A stretch of DNA of 64,000 nucleotides from contig CANHRI010000006.1 in NCBI GenBank assembly GCA_947463515.1, positions 1-64,000 on the forward strand, given 5' to 3'. The notes under the pieces are model-generated. The model had not been told where the DNA came from, searched no databases, and worked only from the letters and a program-made list of their open reading frames with translations. Shown piece after piece: positions 22,023 through 29,705 of this stretch (positions within the stretch are counted from its first letter, which is position 1; each line of letters opens with the position of its first letter). The stretch comes from Flavobacteriaceae bacterium (lineage in GTDB: Bacteria > Bacteroidota > Bacteroidia > Flavobacteriales > Flavobacteriaceae). The translations under genes were made by a program, and so were the position numbers.

Positions 22023-23312
22023 ATGATATACCAAAGAAGTAGTGCGCTGTTTGCAGCCGCCGAAAAAGTAATTCCTGGAGGCGTAAACTCGCCAGTAAGA
22101 GCATTCAAAGGAGTAGGGGGTACTCCGATTTTTGTTAAATCGGCAAAAGGAGCCTATTTGTATGACGAAGATGGCCATCGTTTGATCGATTACATCAATT
22201 CGTGGGGGCCAATGATATTAGGACATGCTTTTGAACCTGTAATCACTGCCATCAAAGAACGCGCTGAAAAAGGAACCTCTTTTGGAATGCCGACCGAATT
22301 GGAAACTCAAATTGCGGCGTTAGCCATTGCTATGGTGCCCAATATTGATAAAATTCGTTTTGTAAATTCAGGAACAGAAGCCTGTATGAGCGCCATTCGT
22401 TTAGCGCGTGGGTTTACAAAACGCGATAAGATTATCAAATTTGCAGGCTGTTATCATGGTCATTCGGATTCATTTTTAATTCAAGCCGGTAGTGGTGCGA
22501 GTACATTTGGGACTCCCAACAGTCCCGGAGTCACACAAGGAACCGCCAAAGATACCTTATTGGCGCCTTACAATAACTTAGCTGCGGTTGCTGATTTATT
22601 TGCGGCCAATCCGCAACAAATTGCCGCCATTATTGTGGAACCCGTTGCCGGAAATATGGGGTGTGTACCTCCTTTGCCTGGATTTCTAGAAGGACTCCGT
22701 GAACTATGCTCACAACAGGGTGTCCTGTTGATTTTTGATGAAGTTATGACCGGATTTCGACTTGCTGCTGGTGGAGTACAAGAACGTTTATCCATTGCAG
22801 CCGATATCGTTTGTTTTGGTAAAGTAATTGGAGGTGGACTTCCTGTGGGGGCTTTTGCAGCAAGAGAAGAGATTATGGATTACTTAGCCCCAGTCGGTCC
22901 TGTGTATCAAGCGGGAACCTTAAGCGGTAATCCGTTAGCCATGGCTGCGGGTCTGGCGATGTTGACCGCTTTACACGAAGACAGTGATGTTTTTAATCGT
23001 ATTGATCAAAAAACAGCCTATTTACATGAGGGGATGGCATCCGTTTTACAAAAAACAGGACTACCACATACCATTAATCGATTAGGGTCGATGATTTCAG
23101 TTCACTTTGACGAAACTCCAGTTATAGATTTTGAAACCGCTAAAAAAGGAGATAACGAACGGTTTAAAGCGTTTTTCCATGGCATGTTGCAAGAAGGTAT
23201 CTACATTGCTCCGTCTGCTTATGAAACATGGTTTATCACCGATGCACTCACCTATGAAGATATAGACAAAACAGTAGAAGCTGTCGCCAAAGTATCCACA
23301 GTATTGAAATAA
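22023..23312 (+). CDS. hemL: Glutamate-1-semialdehyde 2,1-aminomutase
   Basis: HemL moves the amino group of glutamate-1-semialdehyde to give 5-aminolevulinate, the first dedicated tetrapyrrole precursor. The 429-residue length and motifs fit: [13 protein letters not shown] at the N-terminus, [20 protein letters not shown] and the PLP-lysine motif [15 protein letters not shown]. It starts one base after the TAA of the LysM gene, so the three genes from 20215 are probably co-transcribed. A hairpin terminator follows directly. Confidence 0.97.
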
Positions 23313-23314
23313 AA

Positions 23315-23341
23315 AAAGCTCCGAAAGGAGCTTTGCTTTTT
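23315..23341. terminator. Terminator between hemL and the convergent small secreted protein gene
   Basis: AAAGCTCC and GGAGCTTT pair around a GAAA loop (about 23316-23334). A T run follows on the plus strand and an A run precedes, so it can serve both convergent transcripts. Confidence 0.85.
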
Positions 23342-23679
23342 TACTTTATTTTCTTGCCGATGAGTCGGTTTAAAAGTTCTGGATTGGCTTCCAACTGCGC
23401 CATTTGTTGTGGTGATAGTGTGCCTCGAATCTTTGCTTCAATCACACGACTCATTTCAATCTTTCGCTCAGCAGAAAGATTTTTGTTGTCCAATACTTCG
23501 TATTTCATTTCGAAAAGTCTGAAAAAATCTTCATGTTGATTTTCGGGTAAATTTACCGCTTGAGCTAAAGCAATCATATCGTTTTTCGCTTTGGCTTGTA
23601 GCGATAATTCTGTTTCTTGAGCCGACATGCTTAGCGTCGCAACCATACAGAAAGCAACAGCAAGGAGTAATTTTTTCAT
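23341..23679 (-). CDS. Small secreted protein of unknown function (helical)
   Basis: The 112-residue protein has a clear signal peptide (cleavage near SMSAQ) and a helical mature part of about 90 residues. The end, LSPQQMAQLEANPELLNRLIG, resembles LNDEQRQALKANTELYQKLIF in the gene at 27612, so they are probably paralogues. The plan resembles periplasmic Spy/CpxP-like helical proteins, but the LTxxQ motif is only approximate. No function can be assigned. A good promoter lies upstream at 23706-23736. Confidence 0.75.
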   Translation of the reverse strand: MKKLLLAVAFCMVATLSMSAQETELSLQAKAKNDMIALAQAVNLPENQHEDFFRLFEMKYEVLDNKNLSAERKIEMSRVIEAKIRGTLSPQQMAQLEANPELLNRLIGKKIK

Positions 23680-23705
23680 GACTATAAATTTCTAAAAATG
23701 ATAAC

Positions 23706-23736
23706 CAAAGGTAAACTATTTTGCTATAAATCCAAA
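23706..23736 (-). promoter_or_regulatory. Bacteroidota-type promoter of the small secreted protein gene
   Basis: On the minus strand TTTG (plus 23733-23736) is followed after 19 bases by TACCTTTG (plus 23706-23713), matching the consensus TTTG-N17-19-TANNTTTG. The start codon lies about 27 bases further on. Confidence 0.7.
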
Positions 23737-23757
23737 AAAAATCAAAAGATTGAACAC

Positions 23758-24177
23758 TTAGTTCTTAATTTCAAGTGAATTTTCGGATTCTGGTGTTCGT
23801 TTACGCTTTAATCCCGCCTCAAATTTTTGGTATTGAGCTTTTGAAAGAATCTTTTTCATCTCGGCTTTAAAAGCATCCTCCTCGGCTTGTCTTTTCTCGC
23901 GACGTTCTTGTAATTGTTCTTTGGTCATCAAACGGCCATCGTCTTTTTTGCCTTTTAATTCAGCAACACGGGCTTCACGGTCACGAACAATTTTTTCAAC
24001 ATGGGGTCTAATTTTTTCTGCTTGTCCCGGTTCCAAAACAACGTCTTTGGTTAAACGGTTGAAGAGGACTGTAACTTTTTCTTCAAAAGTTAATTTCTGG
24101 GGTGTACCTGATTTTTGCAATTGAGCAGTGACCGGTAGAAAAAAAAGGAATAGTCCTAAAATTGTGAAAGCTTTCAT
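23758..24177 (-). CDS. Small secreted charged helical protein, Spy/CpxP-like
   Basis: The 139-residue protein has a signal peptide (FFLPVTAQ) and a highly charged helical mature region (KKDDGRLMTKEQLQERREKR) ending with LSKAQYQKFEAGLKRKR. The LSxxQYxxF segment resembles the LTxxQ motif of Spy/CpxP-like periplasmic proteins that sense or buffer envelope stress. The function is an inference. A -7-like TATTTTTG lies upstream on the minus strand (24200-24207), back to back with the promoter of the plus-strand cluster. Confidence 0.75.
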   Translation of the reverse strand: MKAFTILGLFLFFLPVTAQLQKSGTPQKLTFEEKVTVLFNRLTKDVVLEPGQAEKIRPHVEKIVRDREARVAELKGKKDDGRLMTKEQLQERREKRQAEEDAFKAEMKKILSKAQYQKFEAGLKRKRTPESENSLEIKN

Positions 24178-24217
24178 TTGAACTCATTTTTCTTTAGTCC
24201 AAAAATAATAAATTAGG

Positions 24218-24247
24218 TTTAATTAGCGTGTGGAATTTGTATCTTTG
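24218..24247 (+). promoter_or_regulatory. Promoter of the MbnP/MbnH-like cluster
   Basis: TTTA at 24218-24221 is followed after 18 bases by TATCTTTG at 24240-24247, a close match to the Bacteroidota consensus. Transcription would begin near 24252-24254, at the GTG codon proposed as start of the first gene, so that mRNA may be nearly leaderless. Confidence 0.65.
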
Positions 24248-24251
24248 TAGC

Positions 24252-24623
24252 GTGAAAATTGGTGTAATCATAATCGTATTTGTTTTTCTTTTTCGCCCCG
24301 TATTACCTGTGCTAGAATACGTGTTGAATTACGATTATATTCGTACTGTTTTGTGTGAAAATAAAGCCAAACCCAAGTTGTCTTGTAATGGTAAATGTCA
24401 TTTGATGAAGCAGTTGGCAAAAGCTTCAGAACAAGAAGATACCAATTCAAAAAACAATAAAAGCCAAGTCAAAGCGGAATGGGAATTTCCATTTTTGCAA
24501 ACAAATGTTCTCGAAAGTAGCACTCCTTTTTGCCAAATGGCTTATCGTCATTCAATCTTTTCATATTCCAATTTATATCAGTTTTCGGCTGTAATTAGCG
24601 TTTTTCATCCCCCAGCGGTTTAA
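24252..24623 (+). CDS. Small Cys-rich membrane protein, first gene of a probable copper cluster
   Basis: I do not recognise a named family. From the GTG at 24252 the product is 123 residues; the in-frame ATG at 24228 lies upstream of the probable transcription start and is rejected. An N-terminal hydrophobic helix (about 3-21) is followed by Cys35, then SCNGKCHL (Cys45, Cys49, His50), then a charged Lys/Ser/Asn stretch and a C-terminal aromatic region. The CxxxCH group could bind a metal. It stands 101 bases before the MbnP-like gene in the same direction, and similar small proteins occur with metal or haem genes in Flavobacteriaceae as far as I recall. A role in copper handling is an inference. 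Confidence 0.65.
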   Translation: MKIGVIIIVFVFLFRPVLPVLEYVLNYDYIRTVLCENKAKPKLSCNGKCHLMKQLAKASEQEDTNSKNNKSQVKAEWEFPFLQTNVLESSTPFCQMAYRHSIFSYSNLYQFSAVISVFHPPAV

Positions 24624-24724
24624 TTTACATTTTTCGATTCTTACAGCTTTGTGCTGGACTTTTTGATGTGTTTTACATATAAAACTCATCAACAAATGAC
24701 TATTGTTTAAATTTAAATTAAATC

Positions 24725-25534
24725 ATGAAAAATATTTTAAAAAAAGCAGCCCTTTGTATGGTTGCCCTTACTGCTTTGTCACTAACTTCTTGTTCCAATG
24801 ACGACGATACCAACAACAAAATCACGGGTGAAGGGACCTTAAAATTAGAGTTCGATAATATCTATAAAACGGCCAATTTGGCAATGAACACGCCTTATAC
24901 CAATACAAATGGGGAGGTAGTAAAGGTGTCAAAAATGAAATACATCGTAAGTAACATCAAACTTACTAAAGATGATGGCACCGTGTTTACGTATCCTAAA
25001 AGTCAGAGTTATTTTATTGTAGATGAATTAACACCAGCGTCATTGCTTCTTAATTTGCCTAATGTTCCAGCGGGAAATTACACCAAAGTTACTTTTGGTA
25101 TTGGAGTTGATCAAGAGCAGTTTAATCTGGGTGCAGCCGGACAAGGAGATTTCTTAACCCAAGCGCAAAGTGCTGGCATGATGTGGTCATGGAGTGCAGG
25201 TTATAAATTTGTCAATTTTGAAGGTACCTTTACTTCCTCAACCGTAACGACCGACACAAATTTTAAAGTGCACACGGGACAAACGGGTACAGATTACAAC
25301 TATACAACGGTAACTTTAAACTTACCATCCAATGCTCTAGTTCGTACCAACATCACGCCACAAGTGCATATCATGGCGGATGTTTCGCATTTGATCGATG
25401 GCACCAACAAAATTTCGTTGACAGCAGCCAAAGGTTCTGGCGCAGCAGCTAACATTATGGGGGGACCAAGTTTAGCGCTTGTTACAGCCAATATCGCCAA
25501 CATGTTTACTGTAGATCATGTTCATAATGACTAA
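24725..25534 (+). CDS. MbnP-like lipoprotein (probable copper-binding)
   Basis: The 269-residue protein has a lipobox (LTSCSND, Cys23) and the beta-rich MbnP fold: KLEFDNI near the start, KMKYIVSNIKL at about 70-80, and VPAGNYTKVTFGIGVD at about 114-129. The segment MMWSWSAGYKF (Trp154, Trp156) matches the region in which MbnP proteins carry the tryptophan that the partner MbnH oxidises to kynurenine, needed for copper binding. Several His (183, 215, 222, 265, 267, ending VDHVHND) could be ligands. The next gene encodes an MbnH-like di-haem protein, so the two fit the known pair, although no methanobactin genes are seen. A terminator-like hairpin lies between them. Confidence 0.85.
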   Translation: MKNILKKAALCMVALTALSLTSCSNDDDTNNKITGEGTLKLEFDNIYKTANLAMNTPYTNTNGEVVKVSKMKYIVSNIKLTKDDGTVFTYPKSQSYFIVDELTPASLLLNLPNVPAGNYTKVTFGIGVDQEQFNLGAAGQGDFLTQAQSAGMMWSWSAGYKFVNFEGTFTSSTVTTDTNFKVHTGQTGTDYNYTTVTLNLPSNALVRTNITPQVHIMADVSHLIDGTNKISLTAAKGSGAAANIMGGPSLALVTANIANMFTVDHVHND

Positions 25535-25541
25535 ATAAATC

Positions 25542-25573
25542 AAAGGCGTTCGTCTTTTCGGGCGCCTTTTTGA
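25542..25573 (+). terminator. Terminator or attenuator between the MbnP- and MbnH-like genes
   Basis: AAAGGCG at 25542-25548 pairs with CGCCTTT at 25563-25569 and is followed by T-rich sequence. It lies 8 bases after the MbnP stop and 18 before the MbnH start. It may reduce expression of the downstream genes relative to MbnP. Confidence 0.7.
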
Positions 25574-25586
25574 TCTTCTTTATACC

Positions 25587-26627
25587 ATGAAAAAGGTGAT
25601 AATAGGGCTATTAGTCCTTAAACTTTTTACGGCCTGTTCTTCCAATGAGGAAGCGCAATATATTGATGTTCCTTTAGCCACTTCAAAACCTAGTAATTTT
25701 CCAGATGCGGTTTATAATTATGGAAATAATCCTCCAACACAGGCAGGGTTTGAGTTAGGAAAGAAACTGTTTTATGAGGGGCGTTTGTCCTCTGATGGTC
25801 TGGTCTCTTGCGGATTTTGCCATATTCAAGCCGATGCATTTACCCATCACGGACATAGTGTGAGTCATGGAGTAGATAATTTGACAGGAACCCGCAACAC
25901 GCCTCCCATTCAAAATATGGCCTTTCAATCCGTTTACATGTGGGATGGCGCAACGAATCATTTGGATTTACTTTCCATCATTCCCTTTACGAGTCCCATA
26001 GAAATGAATGGTAATTTTGAAACTGCTCTCAATATGATGCGTCAAGATAATACGTATCGTACCCTTTTCAAAAGAGCCTTTCCCGATGGATTAATAAACG
26101 CCGAGAATATGTTAAAGGCCTTGGGACAATTTATGGCAATGATGGTTTCCTCTAATTCGCGTTTTGATCATTACCGACGTGGCGAAAGTGGTGGCCTATT
26201 AACCTCCATTGAGTTGGAAGGGTATGCAATTTTTAATCAAAAATGTGCAAGCTGTCACGCAACGGACTTGTTTACGGACCATTCTTTTCGAAATAATGGC
26301 CTTCCTATCAATCCTCAAATCAATGATGTTGGTCGTTACCGTGTTACCGAATTAGAACAAGACCGCTATAAGTTTAAAGTGCCTAGTTTGCGCAATATCG
26401 AATTCACGGCGCCCTACATGCATGATGGACGGTTTTTTACCCTTGAAGCGGTATTAGATCACTACAGTTCGGGCGTGACACAAACACCAAACTTAGATCC
26501 GTTGTTGGTTAATGGAACAACCCTTGGAATTCCGCTAACGGCCTCAGAAAAATCCAAACTCATTGCGTTCCTAAAAACTCTAACCGATCATCAGTATTTA
26601 AATGATCCCCGATTTGCAGAATTTTAA
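25587..26627 (+). CDS. Di-haem cytochrome c peroxidase family protein, MbnH/MauG-like
   Basis: The 346-residue lipoprotein (LFTACSSN, Cys17) has two c-type haem motifs: CGFCH (Cys75-His79) and CASCH (Cys220-His224). MauG and MbnH proteins use two haems to form a bis-Fe(IV) state that oxidises tryptophan in a partner protein; cytochrome c peroxidases instead reduce H2O2. The MbnP-like gene just upstream favours the MbnH role. It should act in the periplasm, anchored by lipid. The next gene starts one base after its stop codon. Confidence 0.88.
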   Translation: MKKVIIGLLVLKLFTACSSNEEAQYIDVPLATSKPSNFPDAVYNYGNNPPTQAGFELGKKLFYEGRLSSDGLVSCGFCHIQADAFTHHGHSVSHGVDNLTGTRNTPPIQNMAFQSVYMWDGATNHLDLLSIIPFTSPIEMNGNFETALNMMRQDNTYRTLFKRAFPDGLINAENMLKALGQFMAMMVSSNSRFDHYRRGESGGLLTSIELEGYAIFNQKCASCHATDLFTDHSFRNNGLPINPQINDVGRYRVTELEQDRYKFKVPSLRNIEFTAPYMHDGRFFTLEAVLDHYSSGVTQTPNLDPLLVNGTTLGIPLTASEKSKLIAFLKTLTDHQYLNDPRFAEF

Positions 26628-26628
26628 G

Positions 26629-27585
26629 ATGAAAAATATTCTATTTATCCTGTTTTCAACATTTGTAATGGCTTCACCAAAAGATACGCTGCCTTCACCG
26701 AATTGGATTTACAGCTTTAAATTACCCAATGCTGCGCTTGAAGATTGTGATTCCTGTGGCTGTTCAGCAAGTGGAGGAAGTATGGGATTTGCCTCGTTGC
26801 TGAATTCCAATTTTATTGGAGTGCGGTATTTTTACCAACATTATAAAACCAATGATGGATTGTATTCCAATTCACCCTGGTATGATGAATATTATCAAAC
26901 TACACAATTGTGGACACGAATTCCCATCACGTCAAAAATTCAAATTTCTGCCATTGTGCCCTATCATTTTCATCAACGTCAAACGGTAAATGGCACAGAA
27001 CCTATTTCTGGATTGGGCGATGTAACGGTTATGGGTTTGTATCAGGTATATCAAAGTGTAAAAAAAGATTCGACTGCTTTCTCCCATACCTGGCATTTGG
27101 GAGGGGGAGTTAAAGCCCCAACGGGAACTTATGATATCCGCAACAACGGCAGTATCAATCCAGGCTATCAATTGGGAACAGGAAGTTGGGATGGTTTGAT
27201 TTTGACCGAATACACTCTTCGTAAAAACGCTTTTGGGCTAAATCTAATGGCCAATTATACTGTAAAATCAGAAAATGATAAAGGATACCGGTTTGGCAAC
27301 CAATGGAATTATGGCGGAACGGTTTTTTATTTGTGGGAACGAAACCAAAATACTTTTTCACCGCAGTTGGGCCTCAATGGAGAGGTATATGCATATAATT
27401 TCCAACACGGACAAAAGGTGCAAGAAACAGCAGGCTCCATCCTTTTTTCAAAAATTGGTTTTGAATGGGGGATAGGAAAATGGTCGTTGGGAAGTAATTT
27501 GTTGGTGCCTTTGTGGCAAAATTTAATCGCGGGCAACGTTGAGGCTAAGTTACGCTTCGCCTTAAACGTTAATTATGCATTATAA
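26629..27585 (+). CDS. Probable outer-membrane beta-barrel protein with Cys cluster, linked to MbnP/MbnH
   Basis: From the ATG at 26629 the protein is 318 residues with an N-terminal signal. Near residues 39-48 it has DCDSCGCSASGGSMG, a Cys-rich motif seen in proteins that accompany MbnP/MbnH in Bacteroidota, as far as I recall. The rest is made of alternating hydrophobic and aromatic strands (FIGVRYFYQHYKT, YHFHQRQTV, LGGGVKAPTGTYD), typical of a transporter-type beta-barrel. It probably sits in the outer membrane and may pass or bind metal with the two lipoproteins. The function is an inference. It is one base from the MbnH-like stop, so translation is tightly linked. Confidence 0.75.
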   Translation: MKNILFILFSTFVMASPKDTLPSPNWIYSFKLPNAALEDCDSCGCSASGGSMGFASLLNSNFIGVRYFYQHYKTNDGLYSNSPWYDEYYQTTQLWTRIPITSKIQISAIVPYHFHQRQTVNGTEPISGLGDVTVMGLYQVYQSVKKDSTAFSHTWHLGGGVKAPTGTYDIRNNGSINPGYQLGTGSWDGLILTEYTLRKNAFGLNLMANYTVKSENDKGYRFGNQWNYGGTVFYLWERNQNTFSPQLGLNGEVYAYNFQHGQKVQETAGSILFSKIGFEWGIGKWSLGSNLLVPLWQNLIAGNVEAKLRFALNVNYAL

Positions 27586-27610
27586 AAAAAGAGGTCTTAT
27601 GACCTCTTTT
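27586..27610. terminator. Terminator between the copper cluster and the convergent gene
   Basis: AAAAGAGGTC and GACCTCTTTT pair around TTAT, giving a hairpin with T runs in both directions. It can end both convergent transcripts. Confidence 0.88.
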
Positions 27611-27611
27611 C

Positions 27612-27953
27612 TTATCCTTTATAGAATATCAATTTCTGATATAATTCTGTGTTGGCTTTCAGCGCCTGACGTTGCTCGTCGTTTAATCCTGAAAGTAGTT
27701 TAGTGCCATACCGCTCATAGATGGCTTTTTTAGTCGATTCATCGGCAGCACTTTGAACTTGTTCCGCGCGCATGATGAAAAGTTGGGTAAAACTCGTCTT
27801 TAAGTTGTCGTCTAATTTAACCACTTTTAATAAAGCCTCTATTTCGGTAGCGGCTACTTCTTTGGGTTGTAATGCAACCGTGTTTTGTTTATCTTGAGCC
27901 ATGCTCAACTGAACTGCCAAGAAAGCGAATAATGCAAAGACAATTTTTTTCAT
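27612..27953 (-). CDS. Small secreted protein, paralogue of the 23341 gene product
   Basis: The 113-residue protein has a signal peptide (QLSMAQ) and a helical mature region. Its end, LNDEQRQALKANTELYQKLIF, matches the pattern LSPQQMAQLEANPELLNRLIG of the product at 23341-23679. The length and signal are alike too. It lies next to the copper cluster on the other strand. Its function is unknown; a periplasmic helical stress or chaperone role is a guess from its similarity in plan to Spy-like proteins. Confidence 0.75.
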   Translation of the reverse strand: MKKIVFALFAFLAVQLSMAQDKQNTVALQPKEVAATEIEALLKVVKLDDNLKTSFTQLFIMRAEQVQSAADESTKKAIYERYGTKLLSGLNDEQRQALKANTELYQKLIFYKG

Positions 27954-28016
27954 AATGTTAGAATTTAGAAAGCGAATATAACAATATATTTCGTACTATC
28001 CATCGGTTTCAAGGAT

Positions 28017-29705
28017 TTAAGTCAAATGAACAGTTTTTGATTCACCATCAACGATTACTTTAACCACGCCTAATTTACTCAATCCTTTCATGGCAGCATC
28101 CCATTTTTTACCGCTCAACTGCGATTGCTCTTTCAATTGGGCTAAGGGTTGACCGTCTTCTGATTTGAGAAGCTGTAGAATTACTTTTTCTTCCTCGGTA
28201 AGCTCAAGGGCTTTCTTTTCGGGACGCATTTGTGGAAAAAACAATACTTCTTGAATCGAGGCATTATTGGTAAGGAACATGATTAAGCGGTCCATTCCGA
28301 TACCCAATCCAGAAGTGGGAGGCATACCAAATTCAAGTGCACGCAAAAAGTCCTGATCAATAAACATGGCTTCATCGTCACCTTTTTCGGCCAATTTCAT
28401 TTGCGCTTCAAAACGTTCCCGTTGGTCGATAGGGTCATTTAATTCAGAATATGCATTGGCGATTTCTTTGCCGCACACCATCAATTCAAAGCGTTCGGTC
28501 AATTCAGGATTATCGCGATGCGATTTACACAAGGGCGACATTTCTTTGGGGTAATCGGTGATAAAAGTGGGTTGGATAAAGTTGCCTTCACATTTTGCTC
28601 CAAAAATTTCATCGATGAGCTTTCCTTTCCCCATGGTCTCATTGACTTCGATACCCATCGATTGGGCAGCTTCACGCAATTCATCTTCTGATTTACCTGT
28701 GATGTCAAAGCCTGTAAACTTTTGAATAGCCTCAGTCATCGAAATGCGTGCATAAGGCGCTTTAAAATCCACAGTATGTTCTCCAAAGGTGGCTTGCGTT
28801 ATTCCATTGACTTGTAAAGCACAGTATTCCAGCAATTTCTCTGTGAATTCCATCATCCAATGATAATCTTTGTAAGCGACATAAATTTCCATGGCTGTAA
28901 ATTCAGGATTGTGTGTACGATCCATTCCTTCATTTCTGAAATTTTTAGAAAATTCATAAACGCCATCAAAACCGCCAACAATCAATCGTTTTAAATACAA
29001 TTCATTGGCGATACGCATGTATAAAGGGATGTCCAATGAGTTGTGGTGTGTAATAAAAGGACGCGCGGCAGCTCCCCCAGGAATGGATTGTAAAATGGGT
29101 GTTTCCACCTCCAAATAACCTGCATCGTTAAAAAACGTTCGCATGGCTTGAAACAACTTGGTTCGTTTTACAAAAACATCTTTCACCTGCGGATTTACGA
29201 CCAAATCGACATAGCGCATTCGGTAGCGAAGCTCAGGGTCGGTAAAGGCGTCGTATGTTTTTCCTTGATCATCCGTTTTTGGCATCGGTAAGGGGCGAAG
29301 TGTTTTACTTAAAAAAGTAAATTGCTGAACAAGGATTGATTTTTCCCCTACTTTAGTGTAAAACAATTCCCCTTCCACACCGACAAAATCTCCTAAGTCA
29401 GTGAGTTTTCGAAAAACGGTTGTATACAAGGTTTTGTCTTCCTCAGGGCAAAGGGTGTCCCGGTTAAAGTACAACTGAATGCGTCCTTCACTGTCTTGTA
29501 ATTCAGCAAATGCCGCTTTTCCTTGGTCACGAACACTCATTAAGCGCCCCGCAACAACCACTTTTTTGCCTTCTACAAAGGATTCCTTGACCTGTTTAGA
29601 CGTATGGTCAACAGGAAAAAGGTGGGCCGGGTAGGGGTTAATACCTAAATTGCGTAATTGATTGAGTTTTTCTCTGCGAATTTGCTCTTGTTCGGACAGT
29701 TGCAT
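28017..29705 (-). CDS. lysS: Lysyl-tRNA synthetase, class II
   Basis: LysS attaches lysine to tRNA-Lys. The 562-residue protein has an OB-fold anticodon-binding domain (about 50-160) and the class II catalytic core with motif 2 FRNEGMDRTHNPEFT and motif 3 GLGIGMDRLIMFLT. E. coli LysS is about 505 residues; here an extra C-terminal stretch of about 65 residues after the core (LELTEEEKVILQLLKSE...) looks like a small winged-helix-like domain. The start ATG at 29705 follows a TATCTTTG -7 element on the minus strand at 29726-29733. Confidence 0.97.
   Translation of the reverse strand: MQLSEQEQIRREKLNQLRNLGINPYPAHLFPVDHTSKQVKESFVEGKKVVVAGRLMSVRDQGKAAFAELQDSEGRIQLYFNRDTLCPEEDKTLYTTVFRKLTDLGDFVGVEGELFYTKVGEKSILVQQFTFLSKTLRPLPMPKTDDQGKTYDAFTDPELRYRMRYVDLVVNPQVKDVFVKRTKLFQAMRTFFNDAGYLEVETPILQSIPGGAAARPFITHHNSLDIPLYMRIANELYLKRLIVGGFDGVYEFSKNFRNEGMDRTHNPEFTAMEIYVAYKDYHWMMEFTEKLLEYCALQVNGITQATFGEHTVDFKAPYARISMTEAIQKFTGFDITGKSEDELREAAQSMGIEVNETMGKGKLIDEIFGAKCEGNFIQPTFITDYPKEMSPLCKSHRDNPELTERFELMVCGKEIANAYSELNDPIDQRERFEAQMKLAEKGDDEAMFIDQDFLRALEFGMPPTSGLGIGMDRLIMFLTNNASIQEVLFFPQMRPEKKALELTEEEKVILQLLKSEDGQPLAQLKEQSQLSGKKWDAAMKGLSKLGVVKVIVDGESKTVHLT

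Follow-up and report, generated by a model that had tools for sequence, protein, structure and literature searches.

Positions 24252-27585 of a 64,000-nt stretch from a Flavobacteriaceae bacterium (contig CANHRI010000006.1; the whole stretch is called the window in the following) carry four genes on the plus strand, encoding a small cysteine-containing protein (SC), an MbnP-like lipoprotein, an MbnH-like di-haem lipoprotein and a predicted outer-membrane barrel (Table 1). A first-pass annotation had described them as a cluster for copper scavenging or delivery with SC and the barrel as additional parts. Our reading of the open reading frames (ORFs) confirmed all four consecutive genes together with the residues named there, namely C35, C45, C49 and H50 in SC, W154 and W156 in the MbnP-like lipoprotein, two CxxCH motifs in the di-haem protein and DCDSCGC in the barrel. 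The four frames are more than chance, because the second and third match PF20243 and CCP_MauG, respectively, and both SC and the barrel contain invariant columns. The Pro-Pro pair at the end of SC was not mentioned in that annotation. Comparing the sequences, we propose with a probability of about 0.78 that SC is a copper-sensing nascent-chain regulatory leader, an upstream ORF akin to CruR and CutF, and not a structural part of the system. Sequence statistics establish its invariant cysteines and Pro-Pro, its first position, the promoter in front of it and an RNA helix between its stop and the next start.

Table 1: Features of the four-gene operon and its borders (positions in the window).
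Feature	Position	Strand	Basis and remarks
Promoter -7-like box TATCTTTG (TAnnTTTG), 4 nt before the leader GTG	24240..24247	+	sequence; relatives
SC, predicted copper-sensing leader, 123 aa	24252..24623	+	GTG start; ORF and relatives
Cys motif C35-x9-C45-x-G-K-C49-H50, presumed metal site	24354..24401	+	C35, C45, G47 and C49 invariant (n=111)
Helix 5' arm (last leader codons, stop and bases behind)	24600..24635	+	pairs at 24600-24608 and within 24617-24635
Pro120-Pro121 codons, presumed site of stalling, two residues ahead of the stop	24609..24614	+	Pro-Pro counts in relatives
Helix 3' arm (bases before mbnP and its ATG)	24705..24733	+	fold; group pairing tests
MbnP-family lipoprotein with WSW (W154, W156)	24725..25534	+	PF20243, 159 bits
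MbnH-like di-haem lipoprotein, two CxxCH, Tyr 277 and 293	25587..26627	+	TIGR04039 best; nearest structure 6e1c
Predicted outer-membrane channel, CDSCGC (26746-26763) near N-terminus	26629..27585	+	AlphaFold2, Foldseek, 21-barrel alignment
Terminator-like hairpin between mbnP and mbnH	25542..25569	+	hairpin search; 4 such sites vs 3.2 in shuffles, weak as a class
Terminator-like hairpin behind the operon	27587..27610	+	same hairpin search

To describe the SC family we compiled 113 ORFs, which were read from most, but not all, family-level SC matches. Among 111 aligned sequences with a mean column identity of 29%, only C35, C45, G47, C49, P120 and P121 are invariant. A Pro-Pro lies within 8 residues of the end in 102 of the 113 SC ORFs compared to 7 of 1552 other ORFs, within 15 residues in 110 (P120 and P121 of 123 in the window) and within 22 residues in 111 compared to 25 of 1552; the two exceptions are truncated, by a contig end or a short frame. 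The same holds beyond the family-level set (61 of 62) and in the close relatives of the window (78 of 78). The spacing from the last Cys to the Pro-Pro is 63-73 residues, and the preferred residues in front of the Pro-Pro (Y at -15 and -11, F at -2 and H/K/R/P at -1) would fit contacts with the ribosome tunnel. The structure model of SC (pTM 0.30) shows helices up to residue 64, among them an N-terminal hydrophobic helix predicted with good confidence, and nothing ordered behind. No Pfam family (E 0.1) and no NCBIfam family matched SC. Membership of SC in DUF2946 was considered and rejected, as PF11162 did not match and hhalign against three DUF2946 sequences, a comparison of few sequences, gave a probability of 0.1; in genome G000 the PF11162 profile found no match.

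Among 149 genomes of the family, SC was found in 88 and MbnP in 71; in the phylum sample of 247 genomes the numbers are 101 and 67. The next gene is encoded on the same strand for 112 of the 113 SC copies, with the remaining copy being located at a contig end. These next genes are 48 TonB receptors, 21 MbnP (window included), 20 YtkA-like lipoproteins and 16 barrels (two of them short pieces), followed by four small lipoproteins and one each of a second SC copy, an AraC-like and a cytochrome-bd-like gene; the names of the small lipoproteins and of the latter two were assigned by eye or lack a significant family match. A plug domain was found in 45 and a TonB barrel in 39 of the receptors (E 0.001), and a profile built from all 48 retrieved the copper receptor OprC as first solved structure (E 6.5e-78; next receptor 1.4e-51). 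YtkA matched all 20 lipoproteins at E up to 0.1, with 3.3e-10 as the best value. Copper thus appears as the common theme of SC operons because of the motif and of this gene company, which comprises OprC-like receptors, YtkA-like lipoproteins and Met/His-rich barrels, and the copper role assigned to the cluster from the start is made likely by it. SC also places MbnP-MbnH and OprC-like receptors in what is likely a common regulon, in support of a function of the pair in copper acquisition. In a single case (L153:5322-7442) SC lies about 300 nt before a gene resembling subunit I of cytochrome bd, a copper-free oxidase.

To represent close relatives we took MbnP loci of named genomes, mostly Flavobacterium, and kept the best 80 of 383; they were retrieved with an MbnP alignment and are therefore close relatives and not a random draw, and their gene order was judged from profile matches on one strand. 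In 78 of them the small gene lies 24-226 nt upstream of mbnP, with the other two at a contig edge, and 77 show all four genes in order, three of these with a repeated MbnH or MbnP-MbnH in between. From the family-level MbnP matches in other genomes of the family we fetched 60 MbnP regions, of which 20 have the order of the window, so that the cluster does recur as the first-pass annotation would have it. Seven more regions, forming the receptor class (L088, L089, L090, L091, L093, L096 and L097), have the order small gene, YtkA-like lipoprotein, TonB receptor, MbnP and MbnH, and three have other arrangements. Two copies of the small Cys gene around a lipoprotein-like gene of about 145 aa precede MbnP-MbnH-barrel in L069, L073 and L080.

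Upstream of the 113 SC genes, the neighbouring gene is on the opposite strand in 46 loci, on the same strand at a distance of at least 100 nt in 31 or of 50-99 nt in 20, and missing in 2. The distance from SC to the next gene is below 150 nt in 82 of 112 loci and reaches up to some 300 nt (101 nt to mbnP in the window); since start codons were set by rule, some of these gap lengths are wrong. The Bacteroidota promoter consensus is TAnnTTTG. This box is located directly before SC in 85 of 113 loci compared to 5.7 expected, but between SC and the next gene in only 4 of 106 compared to 9.3 expected (both from mononucleotide shuffles). The next gene therefore seems to depend on transcription through SC. 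A sigma-70 consensus scan is uninformative for Bacteroidota.

In the window 25 base pairs join the end of SC to the start region of mbnP, ATG included, and the fold of 24600-24736 has a z of -4.14 with none of 200 dinucleotide shuffles being equally stable. As the 3' arms of different species groups occupy different columns (alignment A7), we swapped partners between loci. In the 97 of 113 loci with gaps of 45-330 nt, own partners pair at -7.74 and swapped ones at -5.31 kcal/mol, and none of 5000 permutations reached the observed mean, neither for all loci nor for the 21 MbnP and 41 receptor loci separately; shuffles in the own-arm pairing test were mononucleotide. Close relatives gave -7.60 versus -5.55 (73 of 78 loci with the same gap range, p 2e-8). 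The excess of pairing lies on the last codons and the stop (window from -15), with -3.06 for leaders versus -0.29 for 416 controls (p 1.6e-12), and not downstream of the stop (from +5), where leaders show -0.20 and controls -1.09. Outside the family-level set the excess on last codons and stop is -3.20 (45 of 62 loci, gaps of 45-400 nt) versus -0.02 in 54 controls (p 5e-4). The 5' arm starts about 8 nt upstream of the ORF end, immediately after the position usually taken by the Pro-Pro codons. The 3' arm spans some 25 nt ahead of the next start and often the start itself. Single folds of the 76 of 113 leaders with gaps of 45-160 nt show at least 8 long-range leader-start pairs in 61 (controls 109 of 318) and a paired stop codon in 54 (controls 60 of 318).

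SC might alternatively be a membrane-anchored periplasmic copper chaperone, with a Cys motif exchanging copper with MbnP or the barrel and a Pro-Pro end docking a partner. A well predicted N-terminal helix, three invariant cysteines and the constant presence in the close-relative operon (78 of 80) would suit such a protein, but its Pro-Pro is invariant within a largely variable and unordered stretch that follows the Cys motif, and a chaperone would need neither an RNA helix on its stop and last codons nor a promoter in front only. We thus regard a chaperone as very improbable. Conservation, varied partners, promoter and RNA helix together argue for a leader, and the earlier interpretation stands for MbnP, the MbnH-like protein and the recurrence of the cluster but not for SC as an additional working part.

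In the mechanism that we propose, the promoter directly ahead of the leader would drive one transcript that also covers mbnP, mbnH and the barrel gene. During synthesis of the leader the N-terminal helix would go to the membrane and the Cys motif would emerge and could bind copper. The ribosome would tend to stall two residues short of the stop, at the Pro-Pro. Judged from known lengths, the Cys motif, some 65-70 residues back, would by then lie outside the ribosome and, with the N-terminal helix in place, could be on the outer side of the inner membrane. A ribosome stalled with the Pro-Pro in its active sites would cover the 5' arm and leave the mbnP start open; after normal termination the helix would form and close this start. 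Copper on the nascent Cys motif would choose between stall and termination. It should be added that Bacteroidota hardly use Shine-Dalgarno sequences. The products would represent a copper acquisition set, in which MbnP, with a Trp oxidised by MbnH, would bind copper and the CDxCxC channel would act alongside in the outer membrane.

Low copper would be expected to cause the stall and switch the operon on, and copper to cause release and switch it off. We infer this CruR-type sign of control because the operons encode importers, and by analogy to CruR we hold it to be probable. Alternatively, copper could cause the stall and switch the operon on, with products that protect the envelope. CutF provides the precedent with a start-shielding stem-loop (PMC9973294; here and below, statements on cited papers refer to excerpts of their text), and the helix found here is of that kind. 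However, the commonest genes behind SC encode OprC-like receptors, which would be harmful if induced by copper, and CorA/CorB, a comparable di-haem pair, is down-regulated by copper (PMC3621798), so that we consider the copper-on leader unlikely; MbnP is not markedly similar to CorA according to the same source. A leader could also act on transcription via Rho-dependent termination before mbnP, as has been described for CruR (PMC9426467), with the helix as a by-product. Spacings of up to some 300 nt do occur, but pairing exactly on the last codons, the stop and the next start is not needed for Rho and 82 of the 112 spacings are below 150 nt, which makes this mode of action distinctly unlikely in our view. 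Going beyond the operon of the window, we lean towards the idea that one nascent-chain sensor family controls the outer-membrane copper supply in much of Bacteroidota, with the last codons and the stop of the leader as anti-start. The controlled set would then include OprC-like receptors, MbnP-MbnH, YtkA-like lipoproteins and both Met/His-rich and CDxCxC channels, and ribosomes stalling at a generic xPP immediately ahead of the stop would open the next start.

Several observations weigh against SC being such a leader. Ordinary same-strand neighbours also pair above swapped partners (-6.65 versus -5.55, 456 pairs), and for this reason the position of the pairing matters: as a general property of neighbouring genes, stop-start pairing is partly true, but the 416 controls pair downstream of the stop. 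The permutation result is weaker for YtkA-like lipoproteins (23 of 5000, 17 loci) and barrels (82 of 5000, 15 loci), and -10 kcal/mol or better is reached in only 40 of 97 loci (controls 69 of 416) and in 15 of 73 close relatives. A same-strand gene lies less than 50 nt upstream of SC in 14 of 113 loci. Pro-Pro alone stalls no ribosome when EF-P is present. SC itself is not a DUF2946 protein according to profile and hhalign. The small gene is lacking in 30 of the 60 fetched regions, where MbnP-MbnH is located in an Fe-S assembly (suf) cluster. Of the 89 MbnP matches in the phylum sample, only 34 have SC at most 1 kb upstream on the same strand, and 37 have it within 5 kb. From these counts the four-gene unit is real, yet MbnP-MbnH is not accompanied by the small gene everywhere. 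The suf-type loci have MbnP-MbnH between repeat-type genes and the suf cluster (L062, L076, L078, L085, L087, L094, L095 and L098-L120), with the suf genes named from their sequences and not by profile scan.

A second type of leader seems to occupy the same place in genome G384 from another Bacteroidota family, where a DUF2946 protein ending in IRGPPGLLA lies directly before MbnP and MbnH (L322, L260), both confirmed by profile. We regard this protein as a CruR-type leader. DUF2946 is rare in the phylum sample (6 of 247 genomes, 3 of them above the cut-off). As leader types without detectable similarity, with few sequences compared, share the slot before MbnP-MbnH, the regulatory role of SC is further supported.

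The second gene matches PF20243 with E 1.3e-46 far above the Pfam gathering cut-off of 27 bits, confirming its assignment to MbnP. The protein shares 96% identity with its counterpart in the Flavobacterium sp. assembly LE19-388.1A and 80% with the one in Flavobacterium stagni, so that the 2.45-Mb genome containing the window very likely belongs to a Flavobacterium. Its match to TIGR04052, the four-Cys MbnP equivalog, is below the NCBIfam cut-off (49 versus 140 bits), and the only cysteines are C11 and the lipobox C23. W154, W156, H183, H215, H265 and H267 are kept in all 21 window-class MbnP, with H215, H265 and H267 missing from all 30 suf-cluster copies; these residues are candidates for the copper site. 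At the alignment column of the second Trp in WxW, 19 of the suf-cluster copies have Val and 11 have Trp. Receptor-class MbnP (7 loci) carries WEW. MbnH oxidises a Trp of MbnP to kynurenine, which is needed for copper binding, and from the conserved WSW we infer that this may also happen here; on kynurenine formation by MbnH no paper was found in the open-access literature. In MopE the copper site consists of two His and one kynurenine (PMC3423442). Directly behind the lipobox Cys, SSDDD is present in 11 of 19 window-class MbnP and near variants in 7 more, with one sequence not parsed. As SSDDD resembles the reported surface-export signals SDDDD of Bacteroides fragilis and SDDFE of F. johnsoniae (PMC5080379), MbnP may face outward on the cell surface.

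In the di-haem lipoprotein the haem motifs are CGFCH at 75-79 and CASCH at 220-224. It matches CCP_MauG (E 5.4e-50), and among the 9 families listed TIGR04039 (MbnH) is best with 221 bits, albeit under its curated cut-off of 363, ahead of MauG with 180. The nearest solved structure is the di-haem enzyme 6e1c (E 4.7e-43), compared to 5.5e-38 for the best bacterial peroxidase, so that the protein resembles MbnH more than it does MauG or ordinary peroxidases, as had been assumed. In MbnH a Tyr replaces the Met ligand of peroxidases. Tyr293 is present in 21 of 21 window-class MbnH, and the seven receptor-class proteins all have F or L at this position and Ser in place of His279, suggesting a changed haem site.

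For the barrel gene an alternative longer reading begins at 26602. No Pfam or NCBIfam family matched the protein, but its AlphaFold2 model (pLDDT 80, pTM 0.76) is a barrel with an unordered N-terminus that bears CDSCGC, and the best Foldseek matches are 5o65, 5o67, 5o68 and 4rl8, which are FapF and COG4313 channels. All 21 barrels compared share the C, D, C and C of CDxCxC. The predicted fold is shared with FapF/COG4313 (PF13557-type) channels, and the N-terminal CDxCxC sets the window barrel apart from its sister barrels, which have a Met/His-rich start instead. PF13557 matched 14 of 15 aligned barrels, and 14 of the aligned set are such sister barrels from other SC operons; they start with RPDGHAPISVMGDHxHxKGE followed by MxM repeats. 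Met/His-rich barrels that lie behind a leader and match only PF13557 occur in L124, L128, L131, L132, L134, L137 and the other loci of alignment A2. From their sequences they are candidates for an unrecognised copper channel.

Concerning the remaining features of the locus, the terminator-like hairpin between mbnP and mbnH could lead to more MbnP than MbnH being made. Three short minus-strand ORFs with signal-peptide-like starts flank the operon (23341-23679, 23758-24177 and 27612-27953) and gave only sub-threshold Pfam or NCBIfam matches. As a candidate for a known RNA family, a search of 23000-28500 against Rfam (E up to 0.5) returned two matches below gathering scores at 27578-27673 on the minus strand, which were rejected.

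To our knowledge, little is known about copper uptake and its control in Bacteroidota. The MbnP-MbnH pair of the window shares profile matches, gene order, 6e1c as nearest structure and WxW with the known pair and differs from it in scores below the curated cut-offs of TIGR04052 and TIGR04039 and in the missing further cysteines of MbnP. For CutF of Rhodobacter capsulatus a stall-linked leader model with a stem-loop shielding the next start has been described, and Bacteroidota account for 19% (40% normalised) of 5,334 CutF-like proteins (PMC9973294). As Bacteroidota are well represented there, the SC family may be among them; the excerpted text of that paper names no Mbn proteins. SC passes its filters of less than 150 aa (123) and PP in the last 15 residues, has a same-strand next gene within 1,000 nt (101 nt) and RNA structure over the next start, and shows a predicted hydrophobic N-terminal helix where a signal peptide is demanded. 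In common with CutF-like proteins SC is thus a short, presumably exported Cys-motif protein ending in Pro-Pro, encoded by the first gene before a same-strand neighbour; different are its motif C-x9-C-x-G-K-C and a 5' arm formed by its own last codons and stop. CruR of Bordetella pertussis (DUF2946, PF11162) is likewise a copper-import leader in which a fixed distance separates a Cys motif from a C-terminal Pro motif, and CruR-led operons also include MbnPH-like genes (PMC9426467). It stalls in vitro at RAPP (PMC12992588), and copper was proposed to relieve this stall and thereby to shut the import operon (PMC9426467). In contrast to CruR, with CXXC and RAPP about 45 residues apart (PMC9426467), SC has 63-73 residues between CxGKC and xPP, ends in xPP and not in RAPP, and shows no profile or profile-profile similarity to it. 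Only Bacteroidota are reported to have Sec-gene leaders with a terminal Pro (PMC10987492), and a survey from 2025 lists, in its excerpted text, leaders of the TonB class across Gram-negatives and RAPP/RGPP leaders of copper-related genes in many lineages, Bacteroidota not among them (PMC12992588).

In summary, the kind of leader is known, since SC agrees with the testable filters for CutF-like proteins and both CutF-like proteins in Bacteroidota (PMC9973294) and CruR before MbnPH-like genes (PMC9426467) have already been published in the excerpts considered. In the open-access literature we found no report of a copper leader from Bacteroidota that carries this Cys motif, or of one located before MbnP-MbnH in Flavobacteria. 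As far as this literature shows, three things are new: a leader family defined by this Cys motif and an xPP end, the association of this family in Flavobacteria with MbnP-MbnH-CDxCxC and with OprC-like receptors, and the helix by which the stop region of the leader itself would close the next start. The SC family with its different motif is therefore a candidate for the Bacteroidota copper leader missing from the excerpted 2025 survey (PMC12992588).

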